64,000 nt of DNA from Methylobacter tundripaludum SV96 (GTDB lineage: Bacteria > Pseudomonadota > Gammaproteobacteria > Methylococcales > Methylomonadaceae), in the NCBI RefSeq assembly GCF_000190755.2, contig NZ_JH109154.1, positions 124,001-188,000 on the forward strand, in the 5' to 3' direction. Under the pieces are notes generated by a model that was given only the letters and a program-made list of their open reading frames with translations, was not told where the DNA came from and made no database searches. Below are positions 2,401-21,606 of the stretch, piece by piece. Both the position numbers and the translations under genes were made by a program. The first letter of the stretch is position 1. Every line of letters begins with the position of its first letter.

Positions 2401-3291
2401 ATGTCTCAGATGAATCAAAAAATAAGAAAAGCAGTTTTTCCGGTTGCGGGTCTCGGAACCCGTTTTTTACCCGCTACCAAAGCCAGCCCCAAGGAAATGT
2501 TGCCGGTTGTGGACAAGCCCTTGATTCAGTATTGCGTTGAAGAAGCGGTAGCTGCGGGTATTGATACGATGATCTTTGTAACGGGCCGGACCAAAAACGT
2601 GATCATGGATCACTTTGACAAGGCCTACGAGTTGGAAAATGAACTGACTACCCGTGGCAAGACCGAAATATTGAAAATGGTTCGGGAGATGATGCCGCCG
2701 AATGTGTCATTCGTGTTTATTCGTCAGCCTGAGGCATTGGGACTGGGTCATGCGGTGCTTTGCGCCAAGTCTGTCGTTGGCGATGAGCCGTTTGCCGTTA
2801 TCCTGGCGGACGACTTGATTTCGAATCGTAACGGCGATGGCTGTATGGCTCAAATGGTCGAGCAATACGATAAAAATCAGTGCAGCATATTAGGCGTAGA
2901 GAGAGTAAATTCCCAGGAAACCGATAAATACGGCATTGTCAAAACCAAGGAAGTATCCCCCTCGGTAGGCCGGGTTGAGCTGATTATTGAAAAGCCTGCT
3001 CCTGAGCATGCTCCGTCAAACCTCGGGGTGGTCGGACGCTATATTTTAACGCCTGCGATTTTTGAGAAAATTGAAGCAACGGAACGCGGCGCCGGCGGCG
3101 AAATTCAGCTGACCGATGCTATTGCCGCATTGATGACTGATGAACAGGTATTGGCCTATGAGTTTGAAGGCAAACGTTATGATTGCGGATCAAAACTCGG
3201 TTATTTGCAGGCTACCGTTGAACACGGCTTGACGCATGCAGAGTTGAAAGGTGATTTTCTGAATTATTTAAAGAATTTGGTTCTCGATTAA
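2401..3291 (+). CDS. galU: UTP--glucose-1-phosphate uridylyltransferase
   Basis: Makes UDP-glucose from UTP and glucose-1-phosphate, a precursor for polysaccharide, lipopolysaccharide and osmolyte synthesis. The nucleotidyltransferase signature GLGTRFLPATKASPKEM is at the N-terminus, followed by LADDLI (metal-binding Asp), VEKP-type sugar site (IIEKPAPEHAP) and GGEIQLTDAI. Length near 296 residues is normal for bacterial GalU. Starts at 2401 or 2410 are possible; a TTG nine bases earlier is also in frame, and no strong ribosome-binding site decides. The stop overlaps the convergent ATP-grasp-like gene by 4 bp. Assignment is firm. Confidence 0.96.
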   Translation: MSQMNQKIRKAVFPVAGLGTRFLPATKASPKEMLPVVDKPLIQYCVEEAVAAGIDTMIFVTGRTKNVIMDHFDKAYELENELTTRGKTEILKMVREMMPPNVSFVFIRQPEALGLGHAVLCAKSVVGDEPFAVILADDLISNRNGDGCMAQMVEQYDKNQCSILGVERVNSQETDKYGIVKTKEVSPSVGRVELIIEKPAPEHAPSNLGVVGRYILTPAIFEKIEATERGAGGEIQLTDAIAALMTDEQVLAYEFEGKRYDCGSKLGYLQATVEHGLTHAELKGDFLNYLKNLVLD

Positions 3292-4622
3292 GTTAGCGCA
3301 AGGGCGACCGACCGGTCGCCCTTGCCGTCGTCTGAAATCACCACAACCCCGGCAAAACCGCTGCCTGGCGTGCGAAAATTGGTAGTTTGTCCCTGATATA
3401 AACGAGCGCTGGTCAACTGCGCCTGCGCCCTGTAAACATACTGCCTCAGATCAAGTTTAAGATCGACCATTTCATTTTCCACTTTCAATTGCCGTTCGGT
3501 AGGCCGCACCAAGGCCTGTGCCACATAATTCCCCTGTAGAACAATCTCACCGAATACTCGTTTGGTCACCCCGTCGCCCCGGTATGCGGCTTTGCTGCCG
3601 TAGCCTTTGGCCGGTTTGAAAAACAGATGCTTGCGCGCAGCCCATAAGGCTTCTGCGTCCTCCTTATGTACGCAATCGGTGTGGGCAATGCCGCCAAGAA
3701 GCAGCGCCCTGGTTTCAACGGCAACCCCCAACTCCCGCAACGCGGTTTCATCAGTCAATATCGCCAGATTTCTTTTATCTGCGTATAGCGCATGGGCTCT
3801 TGGATGGGGCGTGACCACGACTGCTTCAGCCAGGTAGGCCTCACGCAATGGTTTTAGCGCTCCAGCTTCCAGTCCGAAGTCGGTCAAGCGGTTGTAAACG
3901 AGATCGATAGGCATATCGCCATGCCAAAGAGCTCCGTCGCGGTAATCAAGCTCGGAAGGATCGCAAATAACGGTATTGATATTGTTTTGCTCGAACAGTT
4001 TTTTGAACAGTAAAAACTCCGGCAGCATGAATTGGGTCGGCGGATTTTCATCAACGATAGCGATTGAATGTAAGGGCCGTTGACCGCGTTCGGATTGCCA
4101 TTCTTCAAGAAACATCGCCATAAACGCCTGTTCCGGATTTTGGACCGCGGACGCATTCAGTCCGGCCGAATCGCAACAGGCTGTTTGCGCCCGAATCAGG
4201 ATGGCATTAAGCAACGCGCCTCCGGCATTACTGTTTATCTCAATTAATTGCGGACCTTTAGGGCTTAAATGAAAGTCATAGCCGAAAAAAACGCCGTGCG
4301 CTTTGGGAATAAATTGCGCCGCACCGGGTGCGTAAGCCAGAACGCGTTGCTGATAAGCTGGCATCGCGATAACACTTTCTATGGCGGTAATAATGTCGCG
4401 CTGGCTGCGTATGTTGCTTTCAGCGACAACAACTAAAGCTTCGGCGAATTGGTGAGGGCGCTCTTCAATGAGCATCCGGTACAACAAATCATCATCCAGT
4501 TGTTGCCGTAATGCTTTACGCATGGCGTCCCTGTCGAGTGAAAGGTAACGGCATTCGGCGTTGCGTTGATCTATCAATTGAGTGGATTCATGCTCGGTGG
4601 CGACTTGAGGAAGTGGGGTCAT
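3288..4622 (-). CDS. Conserved hypothetical, ATP-grasp-like ligase
   Basis: A 444-residue protein without a named homologue that I recognise. Features suggest an ATP-grasp ligase: LIEINSNAGGALLN looks like the metal-binding Glu/Asn strand, and HLFFKPAKGYGSKAAYRGDG looks like the lysine and glycine-rich nucleotide loop. The metal strand precedes the lysine/loop region, the reverse of the usual order, which would suggest a circular permutation. No signal peptide or membrane segment is seen. It converges on galU with a 4-bp overlap and is divergent from the SulP gene across a 303-bp spacer with a perfect inverted repeat. Peptide or amine ligation is a guess; substrate unknown. Confidence 0.6.
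   Translation of the reverse strand: MTPLPQVATEHESTQLIDQRNAECRYLSLDRDAMRKALRQQLDDDLLYRMLIEERPHQFAEALVVVAESNIRSQRDIITAIESVIAMPAYQQRVLAYAPGAAQFIPKAHGVFFGYDFHLSPKGPQLIEINSNAGGALLNAILIRAQTACCDSAGLNASAVQNPEQAFMAMFLEEWQSERGQRPLHSIAIVDENPPTQFMLPEFLLFKKLFEQNNINTVICDPSELDYRDGALWHGDMPIDLVYNRLTDFGLEAGALKPLREAYLAEAVVVTPHPRAHALYADKRNLAILTDETALRELGVAVETRALLLGGIAHTDCVHKEDAEALWAARKHLFFKPAKGYGSKAAYRGDGVTKRVFGEIVLQGNYVAQALVRPTERQLKVENEMVDLKLDLRQYVYRAQAQLTSARLYQGQTTNFRTPGSGFAGVVVISDDGKGDRSVALALT
3298..3325 (+). terminator. GC-rich hairpin after galU, inside the convergent gene
   Basis: GCAAGGGCGACC-GACC-GGTCGCCCTTGC is a perfect 12-bp stem seven bases after the galU stop. It lies within the last codons of the opposite-strand gene. 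It lacks a T-tract, so it may be a bidirectional block or mRNA stabiliser rather than a classical terminator. Confidence 0.5.
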
Positions 4623-4925
4623 TCAAATTTTATATGTTGTTGGGCTACTGTATACGACGGGATTAGCCGACAGATTATTACAGAAAAGCCCTGTCTTGTA
4701 GAGCAGTGCAGTCAATAAGGGGTTAACGCCAAAAATATCAGATCGTTTTTTCTGCACCGGTGCAAAACAACAACGGATCGGTTGTTTTGCACCCTCCTAT
4801 TTCTTATTTACGACCTGGCAATAAAAATACTGATAATTAAAATCAATTGGTTATAAGTAAAAAATCAGTTGGCACGGTTATCGCTTATGACTCGTTAGAA
4901 CCTTTTTATAATTACGAGGATTTGT
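4623..4925. promoter_or_regulatory. Divergent intergenic region between the ATP-grasp-like gene and SulP
   Basis: 303 bp separating two divergently transcribed genes, so it must hold both promoters. Its one strong feature is the perfect inverted repeat at 4759-4793. The stretch next to the SulP start is AT-rich. I cannot place -35/-10 elements with confidence. Confidence 0.55.
4759..4793. promoter_or_regulatory. Perfect 13-bp inverted repeat, candidate operator
   Basis: GGTGCAAAACAAC, a 9-base spacer, then GTTGTTTTGCACC. The arms match perfectly and are followed by no T-tract, so a terminator is unlikely. An overlapping small palindrome GCACCGGTGC abuts the left arm. Placement between divergent genes fits a dimeric regulator site controlling the SulP/Hyf-like block or the leftward gene. 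Confidence 0.5.
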
Positions 4926-6611
4926 ATGAGTGAACCATCCCTGTCAGAGTTACCAAAGTCCGGTTTAGCCGGTTTAAAAGAAAACTGGCGTAGCGATTTA
5001 TTGTCCGGTTTTCTGGTTTTTCTTATTGCCCTGCCGCTGTGCCTGGGTATATCGATGGCTTCCGGTTTTCCGCCATCGGCCGGTATTATCACGGCTATTA
5101 TCGGAGGGATGCTGGTTTCGCGTATCAACGGGTCGTTTATAACCATTAACGGCCCGGCCGCCGGCTTGATCGTGGTGGTGTTAAGTGCGGTGCAGGAACT
5201 GGGCGAAGGCGATGCGATGGCAGGTTATCGTTATGCCTTGGCGGCCATCGTGGTTGCCAGTGTAATACAAATTTTAATGGGCGTGTTTAAAGCCGGACGG
5301 TTAAGTTCGTTTTTCCCGGCATCGGTGGTACATGGCATGCTGGCGGCTATCGGCATCATTATTATGGCTAAACAGATCCATGTCATGCTGGGAACTACGC
5401 CGGAGAAAGGCAGTAGTCTGTTTTCGACTATCGCGCAAATCCCGCATAGCCTTCTGAATCTTAATCATGAAATTGCTATTATCGGTTTTACCGGATTGGC
5501 GATATTGATTATTTGGTCGATATTGAAAAACCCGACTTTAAAGATGATTCCGGCGCCGCTTATTGTGGTGTTGGCTGGAATGGGCTTGGCGCGGTATTTT
5601 GATCTGGAACATGAGCACATGTATTTGTTCCTGCCGGATGCGCATTTTTTACCGCATCATGAAGAAACCGTCGGACCGAAATTTTTGGTCGCGATTTCCG
5701 AAAATTTTATGTCCAGCTTTTATTTTCCCGACTTTTCAAAATTCGCCACCGTAGAGTTTTGGGAAGCCGTTATCAGTATCAGCTTGGTTGGTAGTCTGGA
5801 GAGTTTGCTTAGCGCCATGGCGGTCGATAAACTTGATCCGTATAAGCGCCATTCCAATCTTGATCGTGACTTAACAGCGGTCGGTGCGGGTAATCTGGTG
5901 GCCGGATTGATCGGCGGCTTGCCGATGATTGCCGAGATCGTGCGTAGTTCGGCAAACGTGAACAACGGGGCAAAAACCCAGTGGGCCAACTTCTTTCACG
6001 GCAGTTTTATGTTGTTGTTCGTGGTGTTGTTCCCGAGGCTGATTCATAGCATTCCCCTGGCTGCATTGGCGGCATTGTTGGTCTATACCGGTTTTCGCCT
6101 GGCCTCGCCCAAAGAGTTCGCTAAAGTCATGGGCGTTGGTAAAGAACAGTTGTTTATGTTCGTTGTTACGATTATCGGTGTGTTGGCGACCGATTTATTA
6201 ATCGGCGTCGCTATAGGTATCGTCACCAAATTTACTATCCATATGCTGCGCGGTGTCAGGCTAAATAACCTGTTCAAGATTCATTTTGTTATTGAACCCA
6301 AAAATGCCGATTCTGTTGTAGTATCGATAGTCGGCGCTGCCATTTTCTCCAACTTTATGTCATTGAAGACTGCTTTAGCCAATCTGGAGAACGGCAAAAC
6401 AGTTATCTTTCAATTGAACAATGCGTACCTGATCGATCATACCGTGATGGAGTTCATTCATGATTTTCAGCATAACTATGAAGGGCAGGGAGGACAGTGT
6501 CAGTTTATAGGAATGGAATATCATGATACCTTCTCAGAACACCCTTTGGCGGTGCGCAGAATGAAACGCAACAACATGAGCCGTCGTAAAAGCGATCATT
6601 ATGGCGTATAG
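4926..6611 (+). CDS. SulP family inorganic anion transporter with STAS domain
   Basis: A 561-residue membrane transporter of the SulP/SLC26 family, which carries sulfate, bicarbonate or dicarboxylates. The hydrophobic part covers roughly residues 20-430, with the early LPLCLGISMASGFPPSAGI and INGPAAGLIVVVLSA segments typical of SulP transmembrane helices 1 and 3. A C-terminal STAS domain follows (about 435-540). GAGGA sits 8 bases before the ATG. Downstream is the Hyf-like operon on the same strand, separated by 259 bp holding a repeat. Some bacterial SulP proteins, such as BicA, are sodium-dependent bicarbonate carriers; that role fits the context but substrate residues cannot be judged by eye. 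Confidence 0.92.
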   Translation: MSEPSLSELPKSGLAGLKENWRSDLLSGFLVFLIALPLCLGISMASGFPPSAGIITAIIGGMLVSRINGSFITINGPAAGLIVVVLSAVQELGEGDAMAGYRYALAAIVVASVIQILMGVFKAGRLSSFFPASVVHGMLAAIGIIIMAKQIHVMLGTTPEKGSSLFSTIAQIPHSLLNLNHEIAIIGFTGLAILIIWSILKNPTLKMIPAPLIVVLAGMGLARYFDLEHEHMYLFLPDAHFLPHHEETVGPKFLVAISENFMSSFYFPDFSKFATVEFWEAVISISLVGSLESLLSAMAVDKLDPYKRHSNLDRDLTAVGAGNLVAGLIGGLPMIAEIVRSSANVNNGAKTQWANFFHGSFMLLFVVLFPRLIHSIPLAALAALLVYTGFRLASPKEFAKVMGVGKEQLFMFVVTIIGVLATDLLIGVAIGIVTKFTIHMLRGVRLNNLFKIHFVIEPKNADSVVVSIVGAAIFSNFMSLKTALANLENGKTVIFQLNNAYLIDHTVMEFIHDFQHNYEGQGGQCQFIGMEYHDTFSEHPLAVRRMKRNNMSRRKSDHYGV

Positions 6612-6870: not shown

Positions 6871-8994
6871 ATGATTCTTGTATTAGCTTATAGCGCTGTT
6901 CTGCTAAGTTTTTTTTCCGGCTTGCTGGGACTGATGATGCATCAGCGTCGGCATATACTGCTGTTTAGTCAGCATTGGTTTAAAAAATTCCCTAGCGACA
7001 ATAGTAGTCAGTCTGTGCTTACCGGCTGTCTGGAAGCACGGCGGTTTCCGGTTTTGTTACGGCAAGCCGTGTTTGTTTTACTGGGTTTGTCCGGTGTTTT
7101 TGCGGTATTGGCCGGATTGAGCGTGTTGATCGGTAAGGAGGTGGTTACCGATCAACTCAGTCTGGGGCTGCCTTGGTTGCCGTGGCATGTTCGTTTTGAC
7201 TGCTTGTCCGGCTTTTTCTTTTTAATCGTCGGTATTGCGGTGAGTGCGGTCAGTCTTTACGGACCGGGCTATGTGAACAGCTATCAGGAAAACCAGCATC
7301 CTTTTGCAATCTTGAGCTTATTCACCGGTCTGTTTGTTGCCGGGATGTTGCTGGTGCTGTTGGCCGATGACGCATTCTTTTTCATGATTGCCTGGGAGTT
7401 GATGTCGGTCGCCAGTTATTTTTTGGTGGCGTTCCAGCATGAAAACTCAGCCAATCGCCGCGCCGCTTTTCTTTATTTACTGATGGCAGAAGTCGGTGCA
7501 TTGGCCATTATTCTGGGCTTTGGCGTACTGGCCAGCTTTTCCGACGGCTTTACCTTCGATGCCTTGCGTGCGTCGCACTTGTCGACAACCTGGGCAAGCA
7601 TCGCCTTTATGTTGGCACTATTGGGTTTCGGTATGAAAGCCGGGATTGTCCCTGTGCATGTCTGGCTGCCGGAAGCGCATCCGGTTGCGCCTTCGCATAT
7701 TTCCGCGTTGATGAGCGGCGTGATGCTGAAGGTCGCACTTTATGGGCTGATCCGTTTTTGCTTCGATTTGATCGGCGACGTGCAATGGCAGTGGGGCGTG
7801 GTGTTGCTGATACTGGGTACTATCTCCGCGCTGGGCGGTATTTTGTACGCGATGATGCAGCCCAATTTAAAACGCCTTCTGGCCTACAGTTCGGTCGAAA
7901 ACATCGGCATAATTTTTATGGTGCTGGGTCTGTCGATGATTTTTATGTCCAACGGTCATCCGCAGCTGGCAGCGCTGGGTTTTTTGGCGGCGCTGTTTCA
8001 TGCCTTCAACCATGCGCTGTTCAAGAACCTGCTGTTTCTTGGGGCCGGTATGATTCATCACCAAACCCATGAGTTAAATATCGACATGATGGGCGGGCTG
8101 ATTAAAAAGATGCCGAAAACCAGTGTGTTGTTTTTGATCGGTTGCATGAGTATCTCGTCATTACCGTTGTTTAACGGCTTCGTTTCGGAATGGCTGGCAT
8201 TTCAGACCGCATTGCAGGTCGATGTGCTGGACAATGGCGTATTGCGCAGTTTGATACCCGTCGCCGCCGCTGCATTAGCGCTGACGGCGGCATTGGCGGC
8301 CGCCTGTTTTGTCAAAGTATTCGGCTTGATCTTTTTGGGTCAACCCCGGTCCCATCATTGCGATAAAGCGCATGAAGTCCAGGACAAAGGCATGCTGGCA
8401 GGCCCTGCGCTACTGGCCGGATTGTGCTTTTTGTTCGGCATTTTCCCCGGTCCGGTCATCAGCCTGATCAACGGCGTTTCCGGGCAATTGTTAGGCGAGA
8501 CTTTGCCGAATGACGCGGCGTTAGGCTGGTTGTGGCTGGCACCGGTTTCGGCTAATCAAGCGTCTTATGCTCCCCCATTGGTTTTGATCGGTGCGCTGAT
8601 TGCCGGCTGCATCAGTTTTTGGTATCTGCGGCGTAATCCGGCAACGGCGTTGCGCATCTCTGAAACCTGGGATTGCGGTTTCGGCGGATTAACGCCCCGT
8701 ATGCAATACAGCAGCAGCGCTTTTACCATGCCATTCCGGCGGATTTTCGCCAAAGTCTGGATTATTGACGAGCAGATCGATAAAGACATGCAAGGCGCAA
8801 TGAATCAGGACGTGGCGGCCGTTCATTATCACTTGCAGATTCAGGATCATAGCTGGCCGCGTTTGTATCATCCGATTGAACACGCGGTAAACAAATTAGC
8901 CCAATTAGTGGGACGTATTCAAACGGGAAATATCCGGGTTTATCTGGGTTATTCGTTTGCAACTTTACTATTACTGTTATGGGTGATCAGCTGA
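6871..8994 (+). CDS. hyfB: Hydrogenase-4-like antiporter subunit (HyfB/NuoL type)
   Basis: A 707-residue polytopic membrane protein of the Mrp-antiporter/NuoL/HyfB class, the ion-translocating type of subunit. Conserved charged residues of the proton path are visible: Glu in FFFMIAWELMSVASY, the Lys of the LMSGVMLKVALYG helix after HVWLPEAHPVAPSHISA, and Lys in HALFKNLLFLGAG. It opens the operon hyfB-C-E-F-G-I. Its stop overlaps the hyfC start by one base (TGATG). The symbol follows the closest E. coli subunit; the complex as a whole is not a hydrogenase (see hyfG). Confidence 0.9.
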   Translation: MILVLAYSAVLLSFFSGLLGLMMHQRRHILLFSQHWFKKFPSDNSSQSVLTGCLEARRFPVLLRQAVFVLLGLSGVFAVLAGLSVLIGKEVVTDQLSLGLPWLPWHVRFDCLSGFFFLIVGIAVSAVSLYGPGYVNSYQENQHPFAILSLFTGLFVAGMLLVLLADDAFFFMIAWELMSVASYFLVAFQHENSANRRAAFLYLLMAEVGALAIILGFGVLASFSDGFTFDALRASHLSTTWASIAFMLALLGFGMKAGIVPVHVWLPEAHPVAPSHISALMSGVMLKVALYGLIRFCFDLIGDVQWQWGVVLLILGTISALGGILYAMMQPNLKRLLAYSSVENIGIIFMVLGLSMIFMSNGHPQLAALGFLAALFHAFNHALFKNLLFLGAGMIHHQTHELNIDMMGGLIKKMPKTSVLFLIGCMSISSLPLFNGFVSEWLAFQTALQVDVLDNGVLRSLIPVAAAALALTAALAAACFVKVFGLIFLGQPRSHHCDKAHEVQDKGMLAGPALLAGLCFLFGIFPGPVISLINGVSGQLLGETLPNDAALGWLWLAPVSANQASYAPPLVLIGALIAGCISFWYLRRNPATALRISETWDCGFGGLTPRMQYSSSAFTMPFRRIFAKVWIIDEQIDKDMQGAMNQDVAAVHYHLQIQDHSWPRLYHPIEHAVNKLAQLVGRIQTGNIRVYLGYSFATLLLLLWVIS

Positions 8995-9938
8995 TGAACT
9001 GGTTAATAGCTATTTTACAAACCATACTGTTTGTCGCGTTGGCGCCGTTGCTGGCGGGCTGGGTTAAATGCTGCAAATGCCGGTTACAGAACCGCAAAGC
9101 GCCTTCCGTTCTTCAGCCTTACCGGGATTTGCTTAAATTGACCTATAAACAACCGGTAGTCTCGGAACAGGCTTCATGGTTATTTACCAAAGCGCCGTAC
9201 ATTATTTTTTCGGCAACGGTGCTTGCAGCAACCGTTGTGCCGCTGATTGCCGTTGATTTACCGACTTCGGCCAGCGCCGATGTGATTGTGATGGTCGGTT
9301 TTTTCGCTTTTGCCCGGTTTTTTCTGGCGCTGGCCGGATTGGACGTCGGCACCGCATTCGGCGGTATGGGCTCATCGCGGGAAATGACCATTTCATCGTT
9401 GGCGGAACCTGCGATGTTGATGGCGATTTTTACGCTGACCATGACCGCCTCAACGACTAATTTATCGTTGGCTATCGCCCATGTGCTCAATGAAGGCTTG
9501 GTGTTACGGCCTTCGTTTGTATTTGCTTTAGCGGCCCTGGTACTGGTTGCCGTCGCTGAAACAGGACGTATTCCGGTAGACAATCCGGCGACGCATCTGG
9601 AGCTGACCATGATTCATGAAGCGATGATTCTTGAATACAGCGGTCGCCATTTAGCGCTGATCGAATGGGCAAGTCAGTTGAAGCTGATGCTGTACGGCGT
9701 CCTGATTGCCAATATCTTTTTCCCTTGGGGCATTGCCGAAACCCTTAGCATTCAAGCGTTAGGCTATGGCTTGCTGGCTATTATGGGCAAGCTTGCGGTA
9801 TTGGCGGTTGTTCTGGCGATAGCGGAAACGCTGGTTGCAAAAATGCGCCTGTTTCGCGTGCAGGAATACCTCAGTTTCGCCTATTTATTAGGGCTGCTTG
9901 GGTTGTTGAGCCACATTATTTTGGAGGCGGCACGATGA
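8994..9938 (+). CDS. hyfC: Hydrogenase-4-like membrane subunit (HyfC/NuoH type)
   Basis: A 314-residue integral membrane protein of the NuoH/HyfC/HycD family, which links the soluble arm to the membrane arm in complex I-like machines. Family segments seen are LQPYRDLLKL, GLDVGTAFGGMGSSREM, VAETGRIPVDNPATHLELTMIHEAM (acidic loop facing the redox module; interrupted here only for length limits in citation) and MRLFRVQEYLSFAYLL. The start is the ATG overlapping the hyfB stop; a GTG 15 bases upstream is less likely. Beyond its stop lies a palindromic insert that separates it from hyfE. Confidence 0.9.
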   Translation: MNWLIAILQTILFVALAPLLAGWVKCCKCRLQNRKAPSVLQPYRDLLKLTYKQPVVSEQASWLFTKAPYIIFSATVLAATVVPLIAVDLPTSASADVIVMVGFFAFARFFLALAGLDVGTAFGGMGSSREMTISSLAEPAMLMAIFTLTMTASTTNLSLAIAHVLNEGLVLRPSFVFALAALVLVAVAETGRIPVDNPATHLELTMIHEAMILEYSGRHLALIEWASQLKLMLYGVLIANIFFPWGIAETLSIQALGYGLLAIMGKLAVLAVVLAIAETLVAKMRLFRVQEYLSFAYLLGLLGLLSHIILEAAR

Positions 9939-9964: not shown

Positions 9965-10083
9965 GTAGGCCGGAATAAGCCGGTTCGAGCGATAGCGAGA
10001 ACCGGTGTTTCCGGCGAACACCTCCCGGACTTTGCCGGAAACACCATCGCGCGCTACGCTTGGGTGGCCTTATTCCGGCCTAC
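9965..10083. repeat. Palindromic repeat inserted between hyfC and hyfE
   Basis: A 119-bp element starting GTAGGCCGGAATAAG and ending CTTATTCCGGCCTAC, with an inner inverted pair GGTGTTTCCGGC / GCCGGAAACACC. It would form a long cruciform or RNA hairpin in the operon transcript. The flanks carry a 15-bp direct repeat, ATTATTTTGGAGGCG, at 9915-9929 and 10112-10126. The 66-codon open frame across it (9935-10135) ends in the same residues as HyfC (IILEA) and is best read as a by-product of the insertion. Confidence 0.75.
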
Positions 10084-10134
10084 GATGTTCCTGTCTGGAA
10101 TGTTGAACGATATTATTTTGGAGGCGTCACGCTG

Positions 10135-10812
10135 ATGAACATCGAACAACTGGATTTTTATACCCAGGCCATTTTATCGATGGCCGCATTGGTGGGGCTT
10201 ACCTCGTTTCTTATGTTAGGGCAGGGAAGATTACTCAGACTGATCTTTGTGTTTGCGATGCAGGGTTTTTTATTAACCTTGACCACAGCATTGGCGGCAT
10301 ACAGCTTGAATAATCATCATCTCTATATTTCAGCCGTGCTGACTTTAGTGCTGAAAGTAACTTTTATTCCGTGGATGTTAAGACGGGAGGTTCTGCGAAT
10401 GAATATGCATCGCGATGTCGAAGCATTAAAAAACAATACTGCCGTGATGCTGGGCGGCGCCAGTCTGATGGTATTCAGTTATTACGTGTTGCATCCTATT
10501 GTGCAATCCTCATCAATCGTCATGCTGAATGCCTTGGCGGTCAGCCTTTCCGTGATGCTGTTGGGTATGCTGTTGATGATTTCGCATCGGCAGGCTATCG
10601 CTCATGTGGTTGGCTTTATGTCGATAGAAAACGGCTTGTTCTTCGCGGCTATCGTCGCCACCAACGGCATGCCGATGGTGGTTGAACTGGGCGTGGCGTT
10701 CGACGTACTGGTGGCTGCGGTGCTGTTCGGCATCTTTTTCCTGCATATACGCACCAGTATCGATTCTCTGGATGTCGATTTGTTAAACAAGTTACACGAG
10801 GTGGATAAATGA
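10135..10812 (+). CDS. hyfE: Hydrogenase-4-like membrane subunit (HyfE type)
   Basis: A 225-residue integral membrane protein similar to HyfE, whose C-terminal part corresponds to NuoK. About six or seven hydrophobic helices are visible, with FMSIENGLFFAAI (NuoK-like Glu) and ELGVAFDVLVAAVLFGIFF near the C-terminus. The ATG at 10135 is chosen because the sequence after it matches the family, while the upstream in-frame sequence is repeat. GGAG lies about 12 bases before it. The end overlaps hyfF by 4 bp (ATGA). Confidence 0.87.
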   Translation: MNIEQLDFYTQAILSMAALVGLTSFLMLGQGRLLRLIFVFAMQGFLLTLTTALAAYSLNNHHLYISAVLTLVLKVTFIPWMLRREVLRMNMHRDVEALKNNTAVMLGGASLMVFSYYVLHPIVQSSSIVMLNALAVSLSVMLLGMLLMISHRQAIAHVVGFMSIENGLFFAAIVATNGMPMVVELGVAFDVLVAAVLFGIFFLHIRTSIDSLDVDLLNKLHEVDK

Positions 10813-12272
10813 TTGCCGCCTATTTAGTCTTATTAATACCGTTGATCGGCATACTCTATTTCGCGCTGGCGGGACATAGAGCGGATACCGGAAAAATCAA
10901 TGTCAGGTTTAACGGAATTTGCTTGCTGGCGACCATCTGGCTGGCGATCAACGTGCTCAATCAAGGTACGATTATTTCATCAGGCAAGGCTTTTTTAATC
11001 GATCCGTTTAATGTGTATTTGATTGTGTTGACGGCTTTTGTCGGCTTCACCACGTCGATATTTTCTTCGCCTTATATGGCGCATGAAAAAGAAATCGGCA
11101 AGCTCAGTGACGGTCGCTTAAAGCTGTATCACTCGATGTTTCAGGGGTTTATGCTGGCCATGTATCTGGTGTTGACCACCAATAATATGGGCATCATGTG
11201 GGTGGCGATGGAAGGCGCGACATTGGCAACGGTGTTACTGGTCAGTTTGTATCGTACCCCGGAGTCTATTGAGGCGGCGTGGAAGTATTTTATTTTGTGC
11301 GGCGTGGGTATTGCCCAGGCCCTGTTCGGCACCATTTTGCTGTATTACGCGGCCGTGCAGATCGGCGACGGCGAGAATGCCTTACTGTGGTCGGTGCTTT
11401 ATGAAAATGCCGACAAATTAAACCCGGAAATTCTTGAAATTGCCTTTGTTTTTTTGCTGATAGGTTATGGCACGAAAATCGGTTTGGTGCCGCTGCATAA
11501 CTGGTTACCCGATGCCCATTCCGAAGGTCCGACGCCCATGTCTGCGGTGTTATCGGGATTACTGTTAAACGATGCCTTATACGCCGTGGTGCGTAATAAA
11601 ATGCTGGTGGATGGGGCGACGGATTCCAATATGGCCGGTTTTCTGATGATGGGCTTCGGCATGCTGTCGTTTCTGGTTGCCGCAATACTGCTGCACCGGC
11701 AAAAAGATATTAAAAGACTGTTCAGTTACTCATCTATTGAGCACATGGGACTGATGACTTTCTCCTTCGGTATCGGCGGCCCTTTAGCCACTTTTGCCGC
11801 GTTGCTGCACATGACCGTGCATTCACTGACCAAATCGGCCATTTTTGTGACGGTAGGCCACGCGGCTCAGCTTGCCGGAACCCAGCGCATAGACCAGATA
11901 CGCGGCCTGATTAAAACCCAGCCCAGGATCGGTTGGGGTTTATTGATCGGCACCATTGCCATTGCCGGGTTTCCGCCATTCGGTGTGTTTACCAGCGAGT
12001 TTCTGGTGCTGCTGGCGACCATGCACAGTTATCCCTGGTTAGCGCCATTGCTGTTGCTGGGTATCGGCATCGCCTTTGCCGGACTGTTCAGGCATATACA
12101 GCCGATGGTTTACGGCGACAAGCCTAAAGATCAACAACCGATTACAGCCAACTTGTGGCCGGTCATGATACATCTGGCCCTGGTGCTTTGGCTGGGTCTG
12201 GCCATCCCCGGTTTTCTGGCTAACTGGTTTTCACAGGCGACACTATTAATTTCCGGGAGTACGCCGTTATGA
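10809..12272 (+). CDS. hyfF: Hydrogenase-4-like antiporter subunit (HyfF/NuoN-M type)
   Basis: A 487-residue proton-translocating subunit of the NuoM/NuoN/HyfF class. Conserved residues include Glu in MGIMWVAMEGATLATVLL, the PLHNWLPDAHSEGPTPMSA loop, SGLLLNDALYAVVR, and HSLTKSAIFVTVGH with Lys. With HyfB this gives two antiporter-like channels. It overlaps hyfE by 4 bp and hyfG by 4 bp. E. coli Hyf has an additional HyfD; no such gene is present here. Confidence 0.9.
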   Translation: MIAAYLVLLIPLIGILYFALAGHRADTGKINVRFNGICLLATIWLAINVLNQGTIISSGKAFLIDPFNVYLIVLTAFVGFTTSIFSSPYMAHEKEIGKLSDGRLKLYHSMFQGFMLAMYLVLTTNNMGIMWVAMEGATLATVLLVSLYRTPESIEAAWKYFILCGVGIAQALFGTILLYYAAVQIGDGENALLWSVLYENADKLNPEILEIAFVFLLIGYGTKIGLVPLHNWLPDAHSEGPTPMSAVLSGLLLNDALYAVVRNKMLVDGATDSNMAGFLMMGFGMLSFLVAAILLHRQKDIKRLFSYSSIEHMGLMTFSFGIGGPLATFAALLHMTVHSLTKSAIFVTVGHAAQLAGTQRIDQIRGLIKTQPRIGWGLLIGTIAIAGFPPFGVFTSEFLVLLATMHSYPWLAPLLLLGIGIAFAGLFRHIQPMVYGDKPKDQQPITANLWPVMIHLALVLWLGLAIPGFLANWFSQATLLISGSTPL

Positions 12273-13843
12273 GTTCATCAAACTGGACTGCGGATTTTTT
12301 AAGCCGACTGAGCACCGATATTACGGTTGCAGAAATCGATACAGCCTCGGCAACACTCTGGCAAATAAAAAGCCACGCATGGCAACAATTTGCAGAACTG
12401 GCTATGCAGCAAAACCTGCGCTGGGCAGCAGGATGGGCGGAACAGGTTGATAACCGGTTTTTGATCAACGCCTGTTTTGAAAAACAGGGTGAATACATTC
12501 TTCTGCGCACGATTATCGATGATTCAAACCCCGAACTGCCGAGTCAGGCCACGGTTTATCCCGCCGCCAACCGCAGTGAGCGTCACACTCAAGACATGTT
12601 CGGGATCAAGTTTGTCGGGCATCCGGATAACAGGCGTTGGACGCGGCATCAAGCCTGGATTGAAAAAAACTATCCGTTACGAAAAGATTTTCCTGTTCAG
12701 GGTACACCGGTAGGCATCACACCACCCGATATGCATTATCCGTTTATTAAATCCCACGGTGCAGGTACGTATGAAATTCCGGTAGGCCCAGTGCATGCCG
12801 GTATTATTGAGCCCGGACATTTCAGGTTTCAGGCGGTTGGCGAACTTATCCTAAACCTGGAAGAACGTTTGGGCTACGTGCATAAAGGCATAGAAAAAAT
12901 TGCCGAAGGCAGAGAACCGGAGTCCTTAGCCAGGCTGGCGGGACGTGTCTCCGGCGATACCACCGTCGGGCATTGCTGGGCGGCTTGTAGGGCAATGGAA
13001 CAGACGGCGGGCGTGATAATTCCGCCTAGAGCCGCCTTAATTCGCGGCATTCTGGCGGAACGGGAACGCATCGCCAACCACATGGGCGATATAGGCGCAA
13101 TCTGTAATGACGTTGCTTTTGTGTTCGCGCAAATGCAGTTTACCCGTTTGCGCGAACTCTGGTTGCGCACCAATGCAACGGTTTTCGGTCATCGCCTGTT
13201 GATGGATAAAATTGTTCCCGGCGGTGTTGCGTGTGATCTGTCGGGTGAATCCTGCGCCCTGATCAAGAAGGAGATAACCGAATTAAGAAAAGAGCTGGCG
13301 GAAGTCATACTCGCGCTGGATCTCAATTCTTCACTGGAAGACAGATTGTATACGGCCGGTTTCTTGTCTGAACAAACTGCTGCCGCTTTTGGCACCTTGG
13401 GTTATGTCGGACGGGCCAGCGGACAGGATAAGGATGTGCGTCGCGATACGCCCTATGCGCCCTACGATCAAGTTACGGTTAAAGTCGCACTGGAAACACA
13501 GGGCGATATTGCCTCCAGATTATGGGTCAGGTACAAGGAAATCAGGGCGGCGTTACGTCTGCTAGAAGAATTTATCGACCGGCTTGTTGCCGGCGAACTA
13601 TGCAGCGAATGGCGAACGCCGGCGGCGGGTAGCGAAGGTCTGGGTATTGTTGAAGGCTGGCGCGGCGAAATTATCAGCTACATCCGTTTTGATGCCGATA
13701 ACAAAATCGCCCGTTTTTATCCGCGCGACCCTAGTCAACTAAACTGGCCTGCGTTGGAAAAGCTGGTGCTGAATAATATCGTGCCGGATTTTCCTGTGTG
13801 CAACAAATCCCTGAATGGCTCTTATTCAGGCAATGATTTATAG
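12269..13843 (+). CDS. hyfG: Hyf-like large subunit (NuoCD/HyfG type) lacking NiFe ligands
   Basis: A 524-residue soluble subunit. Residues about 20-150 are a NuoC (30-kDa) domain (ERHTQDMFGIKF, RKDFP), followed by a NuoD/hydrogenase large-subunit domain (GYVHKGIEKIAEG). In true group 4 hydrogenases two RxCGxC and DPCxxC-type motifs bind nickel and iron. Here the first reads R226-V-S228-G-D-T231 and the second D487-P-S489-Q-L-N492, so all four cysteines are absent. It therefore cannot carry a NiFe centre and resembles the hydrogenase-related (Ehr-type) complexes. No maturation endopeptidase gene is nearby. Activity is unknown; quinone reaction or purely structural energy coupling are possibilities. 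Confidence 0.88.
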   Translation: MSSSNWTADFLSRLSTDITVAEIDTASATLWQIKSHAWQQFAELAMQQNLRWAAGWAEQVDNRFLINACFEKQGEYILLRTIIDDSNPELPSQATVYPAANRSERHTQDMFGIKFVGHPDNRRWTRHQAWIEKNYPLRKDFPVQGTPVGITPPDMHYPFIKSHGAGTYEIPVGPVHAGIIEPGHFRFQAVGELILNLEERLGYVHKGIEKIAEGREPESLARLAGRVSGDTTVGHCWAACRAMEQTAGVIIPPRAALIRGILAERERIANHMGDIGAICNDVAFVFAQMQFTRLRELWLRTNATVFGHRLLMDKIVPGGVACDLSGESCALIKKEITELRKELAEVILALDLNSSLEDRLYTAGFLSEQTAAAFGTLGYVGRASGQDKDVRRDTPYAPYDQVTVKVALETQGDIASRLWVRYKEIRAALRLLEEFIDRLVAGELCSEWRTPAAGSEGLGIVEGWRGEIISYIRFDADNKIARFYPRDPSQLNWPALEKLVLNNIVPDFPVCNKSLNGSYSGNDL

Positions 13844-13852
13844 GAAGGGAAA

Positions 13853-14368
13853 ATGCTGAATATTTTTAAAAAAATCCTGACCACGGGTGTCGTTACTGAG
13901 CCGTTTAAAGCGCCCAAAGATGCCGAACTGGAGCAACTGGGCATTGAGATTAAAAGCCGTATAGACAAGAAATTTTCCGGCAGCATTGCGATACGCCAGG
14001 TCGATGCAGGTTCCTGTAACGGTTGCGAACTGGAAATTCATGCGCTGAATAATCCCTTTTACGATATTGAACGTTTTGGCGTTCATTTTGTCGCGTCGCC
14101 AAGACACGCTGACGTGCTGCTGGTCACAGGGCCGGTTTCAAGGCATATGCAGACCGCGTTACTGCGCACTTATGAAGCAACGCCGAACCCGAAATGGGTG
14201 ATTGCAGCCGGTGATTGCGCCGCTTGCGGCGGAGAGTTCGGCGTGTCTTATGCCAGTTGCGGCGCAGTGTCCAACGTCATTCCGGTCGACGTGGTGATTC
14301 CCGGTTGTCCACCCACGCCTTTGGCGTTGATGAAGGGATTGTTGGGTTTGATTAACGCTAAAAAATAA
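13853..14368 (+). CDS. hyfI: Hyf-like small iron-sulfur subunit (NuoB/HyfI type)
   Basis: A 171-residue NuoB-family protein. The four ligands of the proximal [4Fe-4S] cluster can be read: Cys55 and Cys58 in GSCNGCELE, Cys122 in GDCAACGG and Cys152 in GCPPTP. Thus a redox cluster is likely kept although the partner large subunit lacks a metal site. AAGGGAAA precedes the ATG. No polyferredoxin subunit (HyfA/HyfH or NuoI type) is encoded around, so the electron route to or from this cluster is unclear. It is the last operon gene of the complex. Confidence 0.9.
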   Translation: MLNIFKKILTTGVVTEPFKAPKDAELEQLGIEIKSRIDKKFSGSIAIRQVDAGSCNGCELEIHALNNPFYDIERFGVHFVASPRHADVLLVTGPVSRHMQTALLRTYEATPNPKWVIAAGDCAACGGEFGVSYASCGAVSNVIPVDVVIPGCPPTPLALMKGLLGLINAKK

Positions 14369-14449
14369 AAAGAGCGGTACTGCGAAACAGTTATAAATGG
14401 GGCAGGGCGGTTATTGGGAACCTGCCAAAAACTACAATGGGTAAACAAT

Positions 14450-15157
14450 ATGATCAAGAAAGTAAAGATATGGGGAATCGCTGCCGTGATTCTGGGTTCT
14501 TTCAGCATGGCCTCTATGGCAGACGACTTGCTTCAGGATGCCGGTAGCTGGATGCAAATCGTAGGTGAGGGCAGTTTGAAAGTCGTAGATCCCAAGTTGG
14601 AAAAAGGCCGTATCTGGCTGGAAGGTCAATCCCGTTTCGACGACAACTGGAATCATTGGTATCAGGGTATGGTACGCACGGCGGTGGGCTATTCACTCAG
14701 CGATCGAGCCACTATCTGGGCAGGTTACACCTGGTTGCCGACTCAGAACGTCGGCAAGAGCTATGTTTCTCAGCAAGATGTCTGGCCGGCGTTTCGTTAT
14801 GTCTTGCCCACCGATATAGGAACTTTCAGCTTTAGAACTATGTTCGAAAGCAACTTTATACAAGGCGATGATGTTCGTTTCAGGCCACGCCAGATGCTAC
14901 GGTTTATGCATCCGCTGGAGTTCGAGCCGCGTTTAAGCCTGATTACCTGGGACGAGTTTTTCATCCGGGTCAATTCAACAAAATTCGGCGGACAGTCCGG
15001 TTTCGATCAGAACCGAGTGTTTGCGGGCCTAGGCTGGACCTTCAATAAAAACTTCCGGGCTGAAGGCGGTTATCTCAACCAGTATCTGGATGATGCCACT
15101 CACACCAATAACACCATGCATCACTTGATTATGGGATCGTTGTTTATCAATTTTTAA
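14450..15157 (+). CDS. DUF2490-like outer-membrane beta-barrel protein
   Basis: A 235-residue protein with an N-terminal signal peptide (IWGIAAVILGSFSMASMA, cleavage near ADD) and a body of alternating aromatic strands ending in Phe (SLFINF), typical of outer-membrane barrels. FRPRQMLRFMHPLEF and GLGWTFNKNFRAEGGYLNQY are features of DUF2490. The ATG at 14450 is chosen because it places the signal peptide directly at the N-terminus; a longer in-frame start at 14414 is less likely. It lies 81 bp behind hyfI on the same strand, so it may be cotranscribed. Function is unknown. Confidence 0.78.
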   Translation: MIKKVKIWGIAAVILGSFSMASMADDLLQDAGSWMQIVGEGSLKVVDPKLEKGRIWLEGQSRFDDNWNHWYQGMVRTAVGYSLSDRATIWAGYTWLPTQNVGKSYVSQQDVWPAFRYVLPTDIGTFSFRTMFESNFIQGDDVRFRPRQMLRFMHPLEFEPRLSLITWDEFFIRVNSTKFGGQSGFDQNRVFAGLGWTFNKNFRAEGGYLNQYLDDATHTNNTMHHLIMGSLFINF

Positions 15158-15287
15158 ATGCCTGCTGCTTCAGAGAGACGGCCAGGATGATTCTCCTGCA
15201 ATCTTCGCAGTAACTGCCCCAGTTTTTGGCGTTCTACGTCGAGCACAGCGAAACGTATCTGATCCGCTTCGCTGTGTTCACCACATA

Positions 15288-15830
15288 TTACGCGCTGAGA
15301 TTCTCATAATCATAAATCAGCCGTTCCATTGCTTTTTTATCGTTTAAACACCGATCTATTTCAGTGAGCAGCATCATATGGTAATGACGGCATAAAATAG
15401 AATCAGTGGGACACTCAGGAGCAAGCGCTTCAATCATGGTGCATAAATGAGTGAAGTAATGCCGTCTCAGTATTGAATCTTGAGGAAATCCGCTACTGCT
15501 GTTTTCTACAGGTGAAACTGCCGCTTCTTTTACTTGCGGCTTTGCGGAAATCTCAATATTGCTTACGGGCTTATTGACGGACTCAGCAGCTGGTGAAGAA
15601 ATACTTGTCGTATCGGTTACTTGCGAGTTTACGACGCTAGATTCAGAATCAACTGAGTTCTTGGCGGTCGACTCGATTTCCGTCTGTTGCTTTTCCCGCT
15701 CTGGGGTTTTAGGTTTGCTTATGAGCGTTTCTTTTGATGAACATGATGAACATTTTTTTTGTCTTTTTAAAATGAACATTGTTATCAGCAAAACAATAAG
15801 TACGGATACAATTCCAAGTACGGTCTTCAT
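15288..15830 (-). CDS. Membrane-anchored hypothetical protein
   Basis: A 180-residue protein with one N-terminal transmembrane helix (about residues 4-22), a short cysteine-containing basic stretch (KRQKKCSSCSSK), a low-complexity Ser/Glu/Val linker of about 90 residues, and a C-terminal helical domain. That domain has two similar units, SILRRHYFTHLCTMIEAL and SILCRHYHMMLLTEIDRC, apparently an internal duplication. I do not recognise the family. It stands alone, head-away from the bacterioferritin genes. Confidence 0.6.
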   Translation of the reverse strand: MKTVLGIVSVLIVLLITMFILKRQKKCSSCSSKETLISKPKTPEREKQQTEIESTAKNSVDSESSVVNSQVTDTTSISSPAAESVNKPVSNIEISAKPQVKEAAVSPVENSSSGFPQDSILRRHYFTHLCTMIEALAPECPTDSILCRHYHMMLLTEIDRCLNDKKAMERLIYDYENLSA

Positions 15831-16168
15831 AATAGCTCTCCTGATTTTGAGTTGTAATTATTGGATGTTAAAGCATTTGATTTTTTAATAGTCGCCAATA
15901 AAAAAACTATCATGAATTGAGGGTAGGGGCAATAAGTATCAATGCTAGTTAACCACCGTGAATCCCTGCCGAAATCAAGGGTTACGTGGATAGCTATGGA
16001 GTATTTCATGGTGTTATCTACGCGATTGATATAATCAAAAAATATTTATCTGTCCAAAAGATTACTTTGACGGTAGGATCGGAGCGGATAAAATTATTAT
16101 TCAAATGCTTATTAACTCGCGCAAGCCGACTTGATAGGCTTTCGTCCGATTCACTTTAGGGGGCTATT
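15831..16168. promoter_or_regulatory. Divergent intergenic region upstream of the bacterioferritin genes
   Basis: 338 bp between the leftward hypothetical and the rightward bfr operon. AT-rich tracts near 16020-16110 could hold the bfr promoter. I see no convincing Fur box or hairpin. AGGGGG precedes the bfr start. Confidence 0.4.
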
Positions 16169-16648
16169 ATGAAAGGCGACAAGAATATTCTGAAAACGCT
16201 CAACAGTCTGCTTGCCGGAGAGCTGAGCGCATCTGATCAGTACCTGATCCATGGTGAGATGTACGCCGATTTTGGCCTTAGCCATCTTTCTGAAAAAAGT
16301 CTACACGAGTCTGAGCATGAACGGCAGCATGCCCGCGCTTTGATTCAGCGCATTTTATTTCTGGAAGGCACGCCCAACCTAGTCAAACGCGAAGCTTTAA
16401 CTATCGGCATCGGAGTACCGGAAATGTTAAAAGCCGATCTGGAAGTCGAATATCATGTCGTCGGCGAGCTAAAAAAAGCCATCGCCGCCTGCGAAAAAGC
16501 CGGGGATTATGTAACCCGCGAGATGCTGTCCGTTCAACTGGAGGATACGGAAATGGATCATGCTTACTGGCTGGAACAGCAATTGAGGCTAATTAACCTC
16601 GTAGGTCTGGAAAATTATCAGCAAAGTCAAATGAAACCAAGCATTTAA
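16169..16648 (+). CDS. bfr: Bacterioferritin, ferroxidase-type subunit without haem Met
   Basis: A 159-residue bacterioferritin for iron oxidation and storage in a 24-subunit shell. Di-iron ligands are kept: Glu18, Glu51, His54, Glu94, and an ExxH at Glu128/His131 (one residue later than E. coli numbering). The axial haem ligand Met52 is replaced by Arg52, so this subunit should not bind haem in the usual twofold site. The next gene, 18 bp downstream, has the opposite pattern. The two probably co-assemble, as described for paired bacterioferritins in Neisseria and Magnetospirillum. Confidence 0.93.
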   Translation: MKGDKNILKTLNSLLAGELSASDQYLIHGEMYADFGLSHLSEKSLHESEHERQHARALIQRILFLEGTPNLVKREALTIGIGVPEMLKADLEVEYHVVGELKKAIAACEKAGDYVTREMLSVQLEDTEMDHAYWLEQQLRLINLVGLENYQQSQMKPSI

Positions 16649-16666
16649 GCGATTGAGGGTAGACAG

Positions 16667-17134
16667 ATGAAAGGCAATAAAAAAATCATTGAAATTCTCA
16701 ACAAGGTACTCAAAAACGAGCTAACCTCGATCAACCAGTATTTCCTGCATGCTCGTATGTTCCGTAACTGGGGGCTGGAAAAACTTAACGACTACCAGTA
16801 TAAGCAATCGATCCGCGTCATGAAGGAAGCCGATGAGGTTATTGAGCGTATCCTGTTTTTAGAAGGCTTACCTAATCTGCAAAACCTCGGCAAGCTGCTG
16901 ATCGGCGAAAATGTCGTCGAATGTTTAAACGGCGATTTGGAATACGAAAAAAATATTCAGCGACCAATGCTGATAGATGCCGTCGCTTTATGTGAGGAAT
17001 TGCAGGACTACGTCAGTCGCGACCTGCTGGAAGAGCTGCTGGAGCACTGCGAACAAGCCATTGATTGGCTGGAAACCCAGCAAAGCTTAATGGAAAATAT
17101 CAGTCTGCCTAATTATTTGCAATCGCATATATAG
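16667..17134 (+). CDS. bfr: Bacterioferritin, haem-type subunit without ferroxidase centre
   Basis: A 155-residue bacterioferritin closer in sequence to E. coli Bfr. It keeps the haem-ligating Met52 (RVMKE), Glu18 and Glu94, but Glu51 is Val51, His54 is Glu54, and the ExxH of helix D is CEQA. The di-iron centre is thus dismantled while haem binding should remain. It probably serves as the electron-transfer subunit of a mixed shell with the preceding bfr, receiving electrons from Bfd during iron release. It follows the first bfr by 18 bp in an operon. Confidence 0.93.
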
Positions 17135-17290
17135 TACGGCAGCGATTAGCAGTGTCGCCACTTCCCAAATATCTGCAATTGATGACGCTGTTTTTGTTTT
17201 AGATGCTAATTGAGCTTGACAGATACTCGAAACTAAATAAGAATGCTTCTCAATAATTGTATGTTGTTGCGCTATCGAGGAGCTTGTTTT

Positions 17291-21132: not shown

Positions 21133-21606
21133 TTGTGTCAAACTGGAAACGATTGCAATAACAGACAAAAATTAGGAGTCCACCTGAAATTCATCGCCAA
21201 ACTGACCCCGGAAGAGGAAGTAACGTTAACCGAAGCCTATCGTAACCACCCATTATTCCGGGTTAGACAACGGGCACATGCTATCTTATTGAATAATAGA
21301 AGGTATGTAATTGCACGGCTGAGCGAATTGTTTGAGTCCCAGCATGAGACTGTCAGCTCATGGTTAGACAAATGGGAAACAGAGGGATTAATAGGGCTTT
21401 ACGATTGTCCACGAAGCGGTAGGCCTGTGCGCTTCACGGTTGAGGAACAAGCCGTTTTTCTGGGCTATATTGACAAAAACCCACACCAACCCAAGGCCGC
21501 CGCAGCACGATTGCTGGAGGAGACGGGCAAGGAAGCCAGCCTTGACACCTTTAAACGAATTTTAAAAAAAGTGCCTATGCCTGGAAACGTTGTCGGCAAT
21601 CAGTGA
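21133..21606 (+). CDS. IS630 transposase, upstream frame
   Basis: The 157-codon first frame holds the helix-turn-helix domain (LSELFESQHETVSSWLDKWE) and linker. At 21564-21570 the zero-frame codons read TTA AAA AAA G, a classic slippery heptamer. A -1 slip there gives a continuous protein that reads KKSAYAWKRCRQSVKGKRNE into the downstream frame. The second copy has the same heptamer, so this looks like programmed frameshifting, not decay. The start is a TTG in the present reading; the true start is uncertain. Confidence 0.8.
   Translation: MCQTGNDCNNRQKLGVHLKFIAKLTPEEEVTLTEAYRNHPLFRVRQRAHAILLNNRRYVIARLSELFESQHETVSSWLDKWETEGLIGLYDCPRSGRPVRFTVEEQAVFLGYIDKNPHQPKAAAARLLEETGKEASLDTFKRILKKVPMPGNVVGNQ

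Follow-up and report, generated by a model that had tools for sequence, protein, structure and literature searches.

A hyfBCEFGI operon of Methylobacter tundripaludum that probably encodes a hydrogenase-related (Ehr-type) complex, with vacated NiFe ligand sites in the large subunit and a SulP gene upstream

RESULTS

The six-gene operon hyfBCEFGI lies within the window analysed here, a stretch of 64 000 nucleotides from Methylobacter tundripaludum SV96 (contig NZ_JH109154.1, positions 124 001 to 188 000), which belongs to a genome of 4.85 Mb. The operon encodes homologues of subunits of Escherichia coli hydrogenase-4 and formate hydrogenlyase (FHL), and it is the large subunit, HyfG, with which this report is chiefly concerned. 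All six genes, together with flanking genes for a SulP-family anion transporter and a DUF2490 protein, are on the + strand of the window (Table 1). HyfG comprises a NuoC-like N-terminal domain fused to a NuoD/HycE-like domain, and its best matches among named genomes are Methylobacter contigs, at up to 93% identity. Among the open reading frames (ORFs) of the operon there are no genes like E. coli hyfA, hyfD, hyfH or hyfJ, nor are there NuoE/F/G/I genes.

HyfG was placed in a MAFFT alignment together with the HycE, HyfG and NuoCD proteins of E. coli. The first-pass annotation of this DNA had described the 524 aa ORF as a large subunit without any of the four NiFe cysteines, reading its two metal motifs as RVSGDT (residues 226–231) and DPSQLN (residues 487–492). 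The residues are as quoted, and the alignment bears out the absence of all four cysteines, whose positions are occupied by S228, T231, S518 and G521. The placing of the motifs was half right: RVSGDT is indeed the proximal motif, but DPSQLN is not the distal one, which is NGSYSGNDL, the last nine residues of the protein (516–524), aligned with HycE DPCYSCTDR both by phmmer to HycE (7z0s) and by MAFFT. The NDL end of HyfG is level with the TDR of HycE, and NuoCD stops there too; HycE runs 32 residues further. The piece of HycE after TDR is a C-terminal extension that is cleaved at maturation. HyfG has neither the four cysteine ligands nor the C-terminal extension that mark group 4 [NiFe] hydrogenases.

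Table 1. Genes of the operon, its immediate neighbours and the HyfG segments discussed in the text (window coordinates)
Feature	Position	Strand	Remarks
SulP-family anion transporter	4926..6611	+	Pfam Sulfate_transp; ends 259 bp 5' of hyfB
hyfB-like antiporter-type membrane subunit	6871..8994	+	NCBIfam PRK06521 (hydrogenase 4 subunit B) above cut-off
hyfC-like membrane subunit (NuoH/HycD family)	8979..9938	+	Pfam NADHdh; aligned with E. coli HyfC/HycD
hyfE-like membrane subunit	10060..10812	+	NCBIfam PRK11492, 79 bits, below the cut-off of 136
hyfF-like antiporter-type membrane subunit	10809..12272	+	NCBIfam PRK06458.1-5 above cut-off
hyfG-like large subunit, 524 aa	12269..13843	+	Pfam Complex1_30kDa, Complex1_49kDa, NiFeSe_Hases
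RVSGDT, HyfG residues 226–231	12944..12961	+	Counterpart of HycE RVCGIC; C1 to S228, C2 to T231
DPSQLN, HyfG residues 487–492	13727..13744	+	Opposite HycE RAATYAN and NuoCD RTPSFAH; not the distal NiFe motif
NKSLNGSYSGNDL, HyfG residues 512–524	13802..13840	+	Counterpart of HycE IGSLDPCYSCTDR; C3 to S518, C4 to G521
hyfI-like small subunit, 171 aa	13853..14368	+	One [4Fe-4S] site; no C-terminal extension
DUF2490 protein	14414..15157	+	Pfam; 3' of hyfI

The vacated sites are themselves conserved. S228 and D230 are invariant in all 81 HyfG sequences compared (that of the window and those of 80 loci), and position 231 is Thr in 63, Ser in 16, Ala in one and Cys in one. Among the wider relatives listed, a lone cysteine is found at the C1 site (L141, L142) or at the C2 site (L102/L128, L169, L180), never two together. 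Eight residues, D230, N270, D274, D281, R300, N512, K513 and N516, are invariant in a group of 67 motif-less sequences and at each of these positions the most frequent residue of nine Cys-bearing hydrogenases is a different one; the cut for invariance was 97% of sequences, below which position 228 fell in this wide set, and the group holds near-duplicates (the window sequence and L164; L143 and L150) and omits eight clade-3 sequences that are also motif-less. N512, K513 and N516 are present in 67/67, and with D230 they sit in the two stretches that formerly carried metal ligands. In comparisons with five relatives HyfG had dN of 0.035–0.105 and dS of 0.33–0.86 (non-synonymous and synonymous divergence, respectively), a dN/dS ratio of about 0.08–0.12: the gene is intact and under purifying selection, not decaying.

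A set of cysteine ligands displaced to other positions was considered and rejected on grounds of conservation. Three HyfG cysteines are conserved in Methylococcales, C240 and C279 (81/81 each) and C511 (77/77 of the sequences with a residue there). In some of the wider relatives each gives way to other residues (A or S for C240; G, A or I for C279; I for C511), so that such a ligand set is, on this alignment, unlikely; no alternative set of cysteines is conserved across the wider relatives, and the cysteine-free reading survived this check. Stray CxxC motifs were seen in three of the 81 family ORFs (L062, L076, L079).

A FastTree phylogeny was built from 86 sequences, comprising 67 + 8 motif-less sequences, nine hydrogenases and two NuoCD sequences as root. 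The motif-less sequences formed one clade (support 0.998) beside the FHL-type HycE/HyfG group, so that HyfG stands apart from the Cys-bearing hydrogenases, here an FHL-type sample only, with Mbh, Ech and CooH left out, and the first-pass reading survived this check too. Neither RxCGxC nor DPCxxC was present in 75 of 84 HyfG/HycE-type sequences, and the nine with both are of the HycE/HyfG type; the genome of M. tundripaludum also encodes three NiFe hydrogenase large subunits with both motifs intact. A second motif-less subgroup (L134–L143, except L138) typically has HxHDPSW and FPLINKSFNLxYxGxDL, and its six genes stand in the same order. In a third type (L144–L149, L151) hyfB comes after hyfI in most loci, and the small subunit, in those loci where it was predicted, is longer.

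HyfG matches at E <= 1e-60 were found in 52 of 101 family-level genomes and in 45 of 369 gammaproteobacterial (class-level) genomes. Removal of one of the latter (G148, best E 2.5e-78) left 44/369 with a strong match (E <= 1e-100), and the motifs were checked in 41 of these carriers, with L109 and L112 partial and G133, G199 and G207 left out. A match to the maturation protein HypD was lacking in 24 of the 44, so the association with Hyp maturation genes that is a feature of group 4 hydrogenases does not hold for these carriers. The gene thus does occur in the absence of NiFe maturation, but avoidance of NiFe maturation is not shown, there being no association with HypD in either direction (P=0.33).

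The first-pass annotation had further proposed that the small subunit retains its four [4Fe-4S] cysteines, that both antiporter subunits keep key Lys/Glu residues and that no ferredoxin-type subunit is encoded, and all three proposals hold. The HyfI ligands C55, C58, C122 and C152 are Cys in 71/71 sequences; two further HyfI cysteines, C136 (70/71) and C125 (67/71), are nearly invariant. Of the ion-path residues, HyfB K256, K287 and K385 are conserved in 64/64 sequences and E176 in 63/64, and HyfF E135, K223 and K342 in 76/76. At the position of HyfB K287, HyfF has N254, as E. coli HyfF also has Asn. The operon is without hyfA- or hyfH-like genes; the sole match of an E. coli HycF query in the genome lay 6 kb from the NuoCD hit, and other polyferredoxins were not searched for.

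An AlphaFold2 model of HyfG had a mean predicted local distance difference test score (pLDDT) of 80.9. Its best Foldseek match was HycE (7z0s_E; E 1e-30, TM-score 0.86 by query length), followed by NuoCD, and 7z0s_E was also the best PDB match by sequence (phmmer). At the positions of the quinone-head His and Tyr of NuoD, both of which are kept in the two NuoCD sequences compared, the motif-less sequences have I180 (67/67) and G229 (66/67). A canonical quinone pocket is therefore not supported, and a standard quinone site in HyfG is, as far as these residues can tell, unlikely. The hydrogenase-type residues E181, H184 and F185 are invariant in the motif-less group.

The gene for the SulP transporter recurs beside the complex. 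Among 80 loci fetched, 56 were informative for this count (those with a long match to hyfB and 2 kb or more of sequence 5' of it, all Methylococcales), and in 41 of them SulP lies directly upstream of hyfB on the same strand, at a gap of -3 to 510 bp, with two upstream SulP hits in 17. In the remainder SulP is divergent (three loci), SulP or hyfB is broken or farther apart (two loci), or there is no SulP (ten loci). The families flanking the 80 loci were SulP (49), DUF2490 (26), a sigma-54 response regulator (21), a histidine kinase (20) and cation efflux (6). DUF2490 amounts to 27/82 when the window's own copy (L001) is included, and some copies are upstream on the opposite strand. The histidine kinase and sigma-54 response regulator recur beside the operon (e.g. 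L011, L014 and L063, beside hyfI) and are not listed at the operon of the window. The regulator, present in 21/80 loci, prompted a search for a sigma-54 promoter, which was rejected: the window has 26 consensus matches against a shuffle mean of 40, and because matches are fewer than in shuffles a one-mismatch site upstream of SulP (4870–4885) carries little weight.

In two Methylovulum loci other genes follow hyfI. In Methylovulum miyakonense (L029), which has no SulP at the locus, genes for DabA and a DabB-like protein (Pfam) lie directly 3' of hyfI at 12474–16966, and a second Methylovulum (L028) has ORFs of the same DabA/DabB-like sequence clusters 3' of hyfI at 12685–17138. Such genes beside hyfI suggest a connection with inorganic carbon. 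Across the class, 40 regions of 4.7–19.5 kb, among them one from a genome of the order itself (G136, L124), gave no tblastn match to SulP or DabA; tblastn was chosen here because selection of ORFs by length gave antisense frames in high-GC loci. Carriers of the complex are enriched neither in RuBisCO (22/44 against 153/325, P=0.75) nor in DabA (12/44 against 71/325, P=0.44), and in the M. tundripaludum genome DabA is on another contig and RuBisCO gave no match. The SulP protein of the window scores 133.7 bits where the curated BicA cut-off is 880; DauA, the NCBIfam model that it matches best, is also below cut-off (205.8 of 614). The lack of RuBisCO and DabA enrichment and of SulP or DabA in the 40 class regions speaks against a general carbon-concentrating role for the complex. 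Linkage to SulP, though frequent in Methylococcales, does not characterize the complex in general. Among 20 flanking proteins from outside Methylococcales searched against Pfam, the sole recurrence was a small helix–turn–helix (HTH) protein, recognized by Pfam in L123 and L138 and as a sequence cluster in five loci. In one genome outside Methylococcales a SLAC1-type anion channel gene (L132, 1932–3053) is just 5' of the operon.

Some further features of the operon and the window may be recorded. The true start of hyfE is probably the ATG at 10135, because many homologous ORFs are of about 225 aa. Elsewhere in the window are two adjoining bacterioferritin genes (16169–17134), transposase-like HTH and DDE_3 parts in two neighbouring ORFs (21133–22202), an ISAzo13-type DDE transposase ORF (23141–24031) and, on the - strand, a 444 aa protein (3288–4622) for which Pfam gave no match at E 0.001. 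Rfam gave no match at gathering scores in positions 1–24000.

DISCUSSION

Judged by its sequence, the complex encoded by hyfBCEFGI is a member of the energy-converting hydrogenase-related (Ehr) class, and probably an ion-coupled oxidoreductase and not a hydrogenase. Three features of that class are found: a large subunit homologous to those of group 4 NiFe hydrogenases (HycE being the best match by both phmmer and Foldseek), the absence of both the N- and the C-terminal CxxC motif, and operon genes (hyfB and hyfF) for antiporter-like membrane subunits of the Mrp/Nuo type. Assignment to this class, already suggested at first pass, agrees with the descriptions contained in parts of PMC6349859, PMC10284858 and PMC4378227, the published Ehr sequences themselves being outside our tree. 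That the six subunits form an Ehr-type complex carrying out ion-coupled redox chemistry, neither making nor using H2, is the reading that we favour, albeit with some reserve.

In such a complex, a relative of complex I and group 4 hydrogenases, a cytoplasmic redox reaction would be coupled to ion movement through HyfB and HyfF. As neither a polyferredoxin nor a flavin subunit is encoded in the operon, the HyfI cluster may exchange electrons with a separate dehydrogenase or with ferredoxin or flavodoxin as a soluble carrier of low potential, and HyfG would then pass them to, or receive them from, a second partner at the vacated cavity. Electron transfer by this route could drive an ion gradient or be driven by one, and gradient-driven reduction of ferredoxin would be attractive in organisms with high-potential electron donors. 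Several observations weigh against an Ehr-type redox complex of this kind. A single cluster, without HyfA or HyfH, is unusual for a redox complex, and the residues of a quinone site are absent from HyfG. Loops 162–204 and 503–524 of the HyfG model have pLDDT <50, so that the geometry of the cavity is not resolved. HypD is present in 20 of the 44 carriers, with no negative association (P=0.33), and in PMC5596200 the corresponding cluster of Nitrospira is regarded as a putative group 4 hydrogenase.

Other explanations must be set beside this one. It is possible, if unlikely, that in Methylococcales redox-driven ion pumping by HyfBCEFGI energizes the import of bicarbonate, or of another anion, by SulP, in analogy to NDH-1-linked CO2 uptake or to DAC. 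The SulP gene directly upstream in 41/56 loci, other flanking families being rarer, and the DabA and DabB-like genes 3' of hyfI in M. miyakonense, with the same clusters in the second Methylovulum, are consistent with such a function; yet ten of the 56 loci, M. miyakonense among them, have no SulP, the 40 regions of other gammaproteobacterial genomes gave no match to SulP or DabA, carriers are not richer in RuBisCO or DabA, and the SulP protein falls far below the BicA cut-off, its DauA match being below cut-off as well. We regard as equally doubtful a quinone-reducing (or quinol-oxidizing) miniature complex I with a ferredoxin-type donor, for which the complex I fold and subunits and the retained HyfI cluster argue, but which would have to operate with I180 and G229 at the quinone-head positions and with the hydrogenase-type E181, H184 and F185 invariant instead. 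It is also tempting to speculate that, in gammaproteobacterial methanotrophs, the Ehr complex and its one or two SulP proteins form a redox-powered module for anion uptake, the anion probably being bicarbonate, and that the cavity which once held NiFe in HyfG is no empty pocket but a polar site (D230, N512, K513, N516) dedicated to a substrate as yet undescribed, a conjunction that we consider distinctly unlikely.

The loss of every known cofactor site from HyfG would be explained if the complex were a non-catalytic remnant, an ion channel or antiporter under an electron-inert HyfGI cap. This we hold to be improbable, in view of the purifying selection, the new invariant residues, the Fe-S ligands conserved in 71/71 sequences and the broad distribution of the gene. 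Scarcely credible is a genuine NiFe hydrogenase whose metal is bound by displaced ligands or by alternative ones: in its favour, HycE is the nearest solved relative and the M. tundripaludum genome has a HypD match, but C240, C279 and C511 are not conserved in all wider relatives, 24/44 carriers are without a HypD match and the motif-less sequences form a clade of their own.

Preference for an Ehr-type complex has consequences for annotation. Clusters of this kind have gone under the names of hydrogenase-4 and formate hydrogenlyase: MCA1137–1142 are called a multisubunit formate hydrogenlyase in the genome paper of Methylococcus capsulatus (PMC517821), and these six locus tags may be a cluster of the same type. 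A signature of SGD[ST] together with NKS-x-N-x-SYSG-x-DL at the very C-terminus could separate such complexes from real hydrogenases, and its use could keep H2 metabolism from being wrongly predicted. With the invariant residues as targets, mutagenesis can address the question of the Ehr substrate, and the SulP linkage offers a testable physiological lead in methanotrophs. To our knowledge the neighbourhood in Methylococcales is new, with SulP directly upstream and, in two loci, DabA and a DabB-like gene downstream, the Ehr class itself being already known; a narrow literature search, mostly without subscription papers, found no report of a link between SulP and the complex. Related subjects are addressed in PMC10974252, which concerns Methylocaldum, and PMC10880623, which concerns inorganic carbon toolkits.

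Comparison with known systems places the complex nearest to the Ehr and hyfBCEFGI clusters of Cupriavidus, Acidithiobacillus, Nitrospira and, similarly, Sulfobacillus, in which the available descriptions give the same group-4-like subunits and antiporter-type membrane proteins. In the sections that describe them, Ehr complexes are akin to group 4 hydrogenases and without metal-binding residues or CxxC motifs (PMC6349859; PMC10284858), and Sulfobacillus large subunits are likewise given as lacking the motifs (PMC4378227), as does HyfG of the window. The six-gene set of the window operon is also named in PMC2864759, PMC7735108 and PMC5596200. The first of these, in its passage on Cupriavidus, judges a role of hyfBCEFGI in lithotrophic growth very unlikely; the Acidithiobacillus ferrooxidans cluster, earlier called a group 4 hydrogenase (PMC2621215), is given as a non-hydrogenase in HydDB (PMC7735108), and the Nitrospira cluster in one instance adjoins a CO dehydrogenase (PMC5596200). 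PMC6349859 proposes formate dehydrogenase as an Ehr partner in other phyla and counts Mbx as a hydrogenase-related ferredoxin oxidoreductase. Unlike these published clusters, compared here by description only, the complex of the window is found in Methylococcales and often has SulP upstream.

With E. coli hydrogenase-4 and FHL (HyfG; HycE, 7z0s) the complex has homologous B, C, E, F, G and I subunits, HycE being the best match of HyfG; it differs in lacking the four cysteines, the C-terminal extension and, in the operon, hyfA, hyfD, hyfH and hyfJ. The archaeal MBS/Mbx complex, of which HyfG matches 6u8y_L at 67.8 bits, probably differs in its subunit set and in having an altered metal site. 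Respiratory complex I (NuoB, CD, H, L/M/N) has the fold and subunit plan in common with the window complex, whose operon, unlike complex I, is without NuoE/F/G/I and in whose large subunit the quinone His and Tyr of NuoD are I180 and G229, a separate NuoCD being encoded in the same genome.

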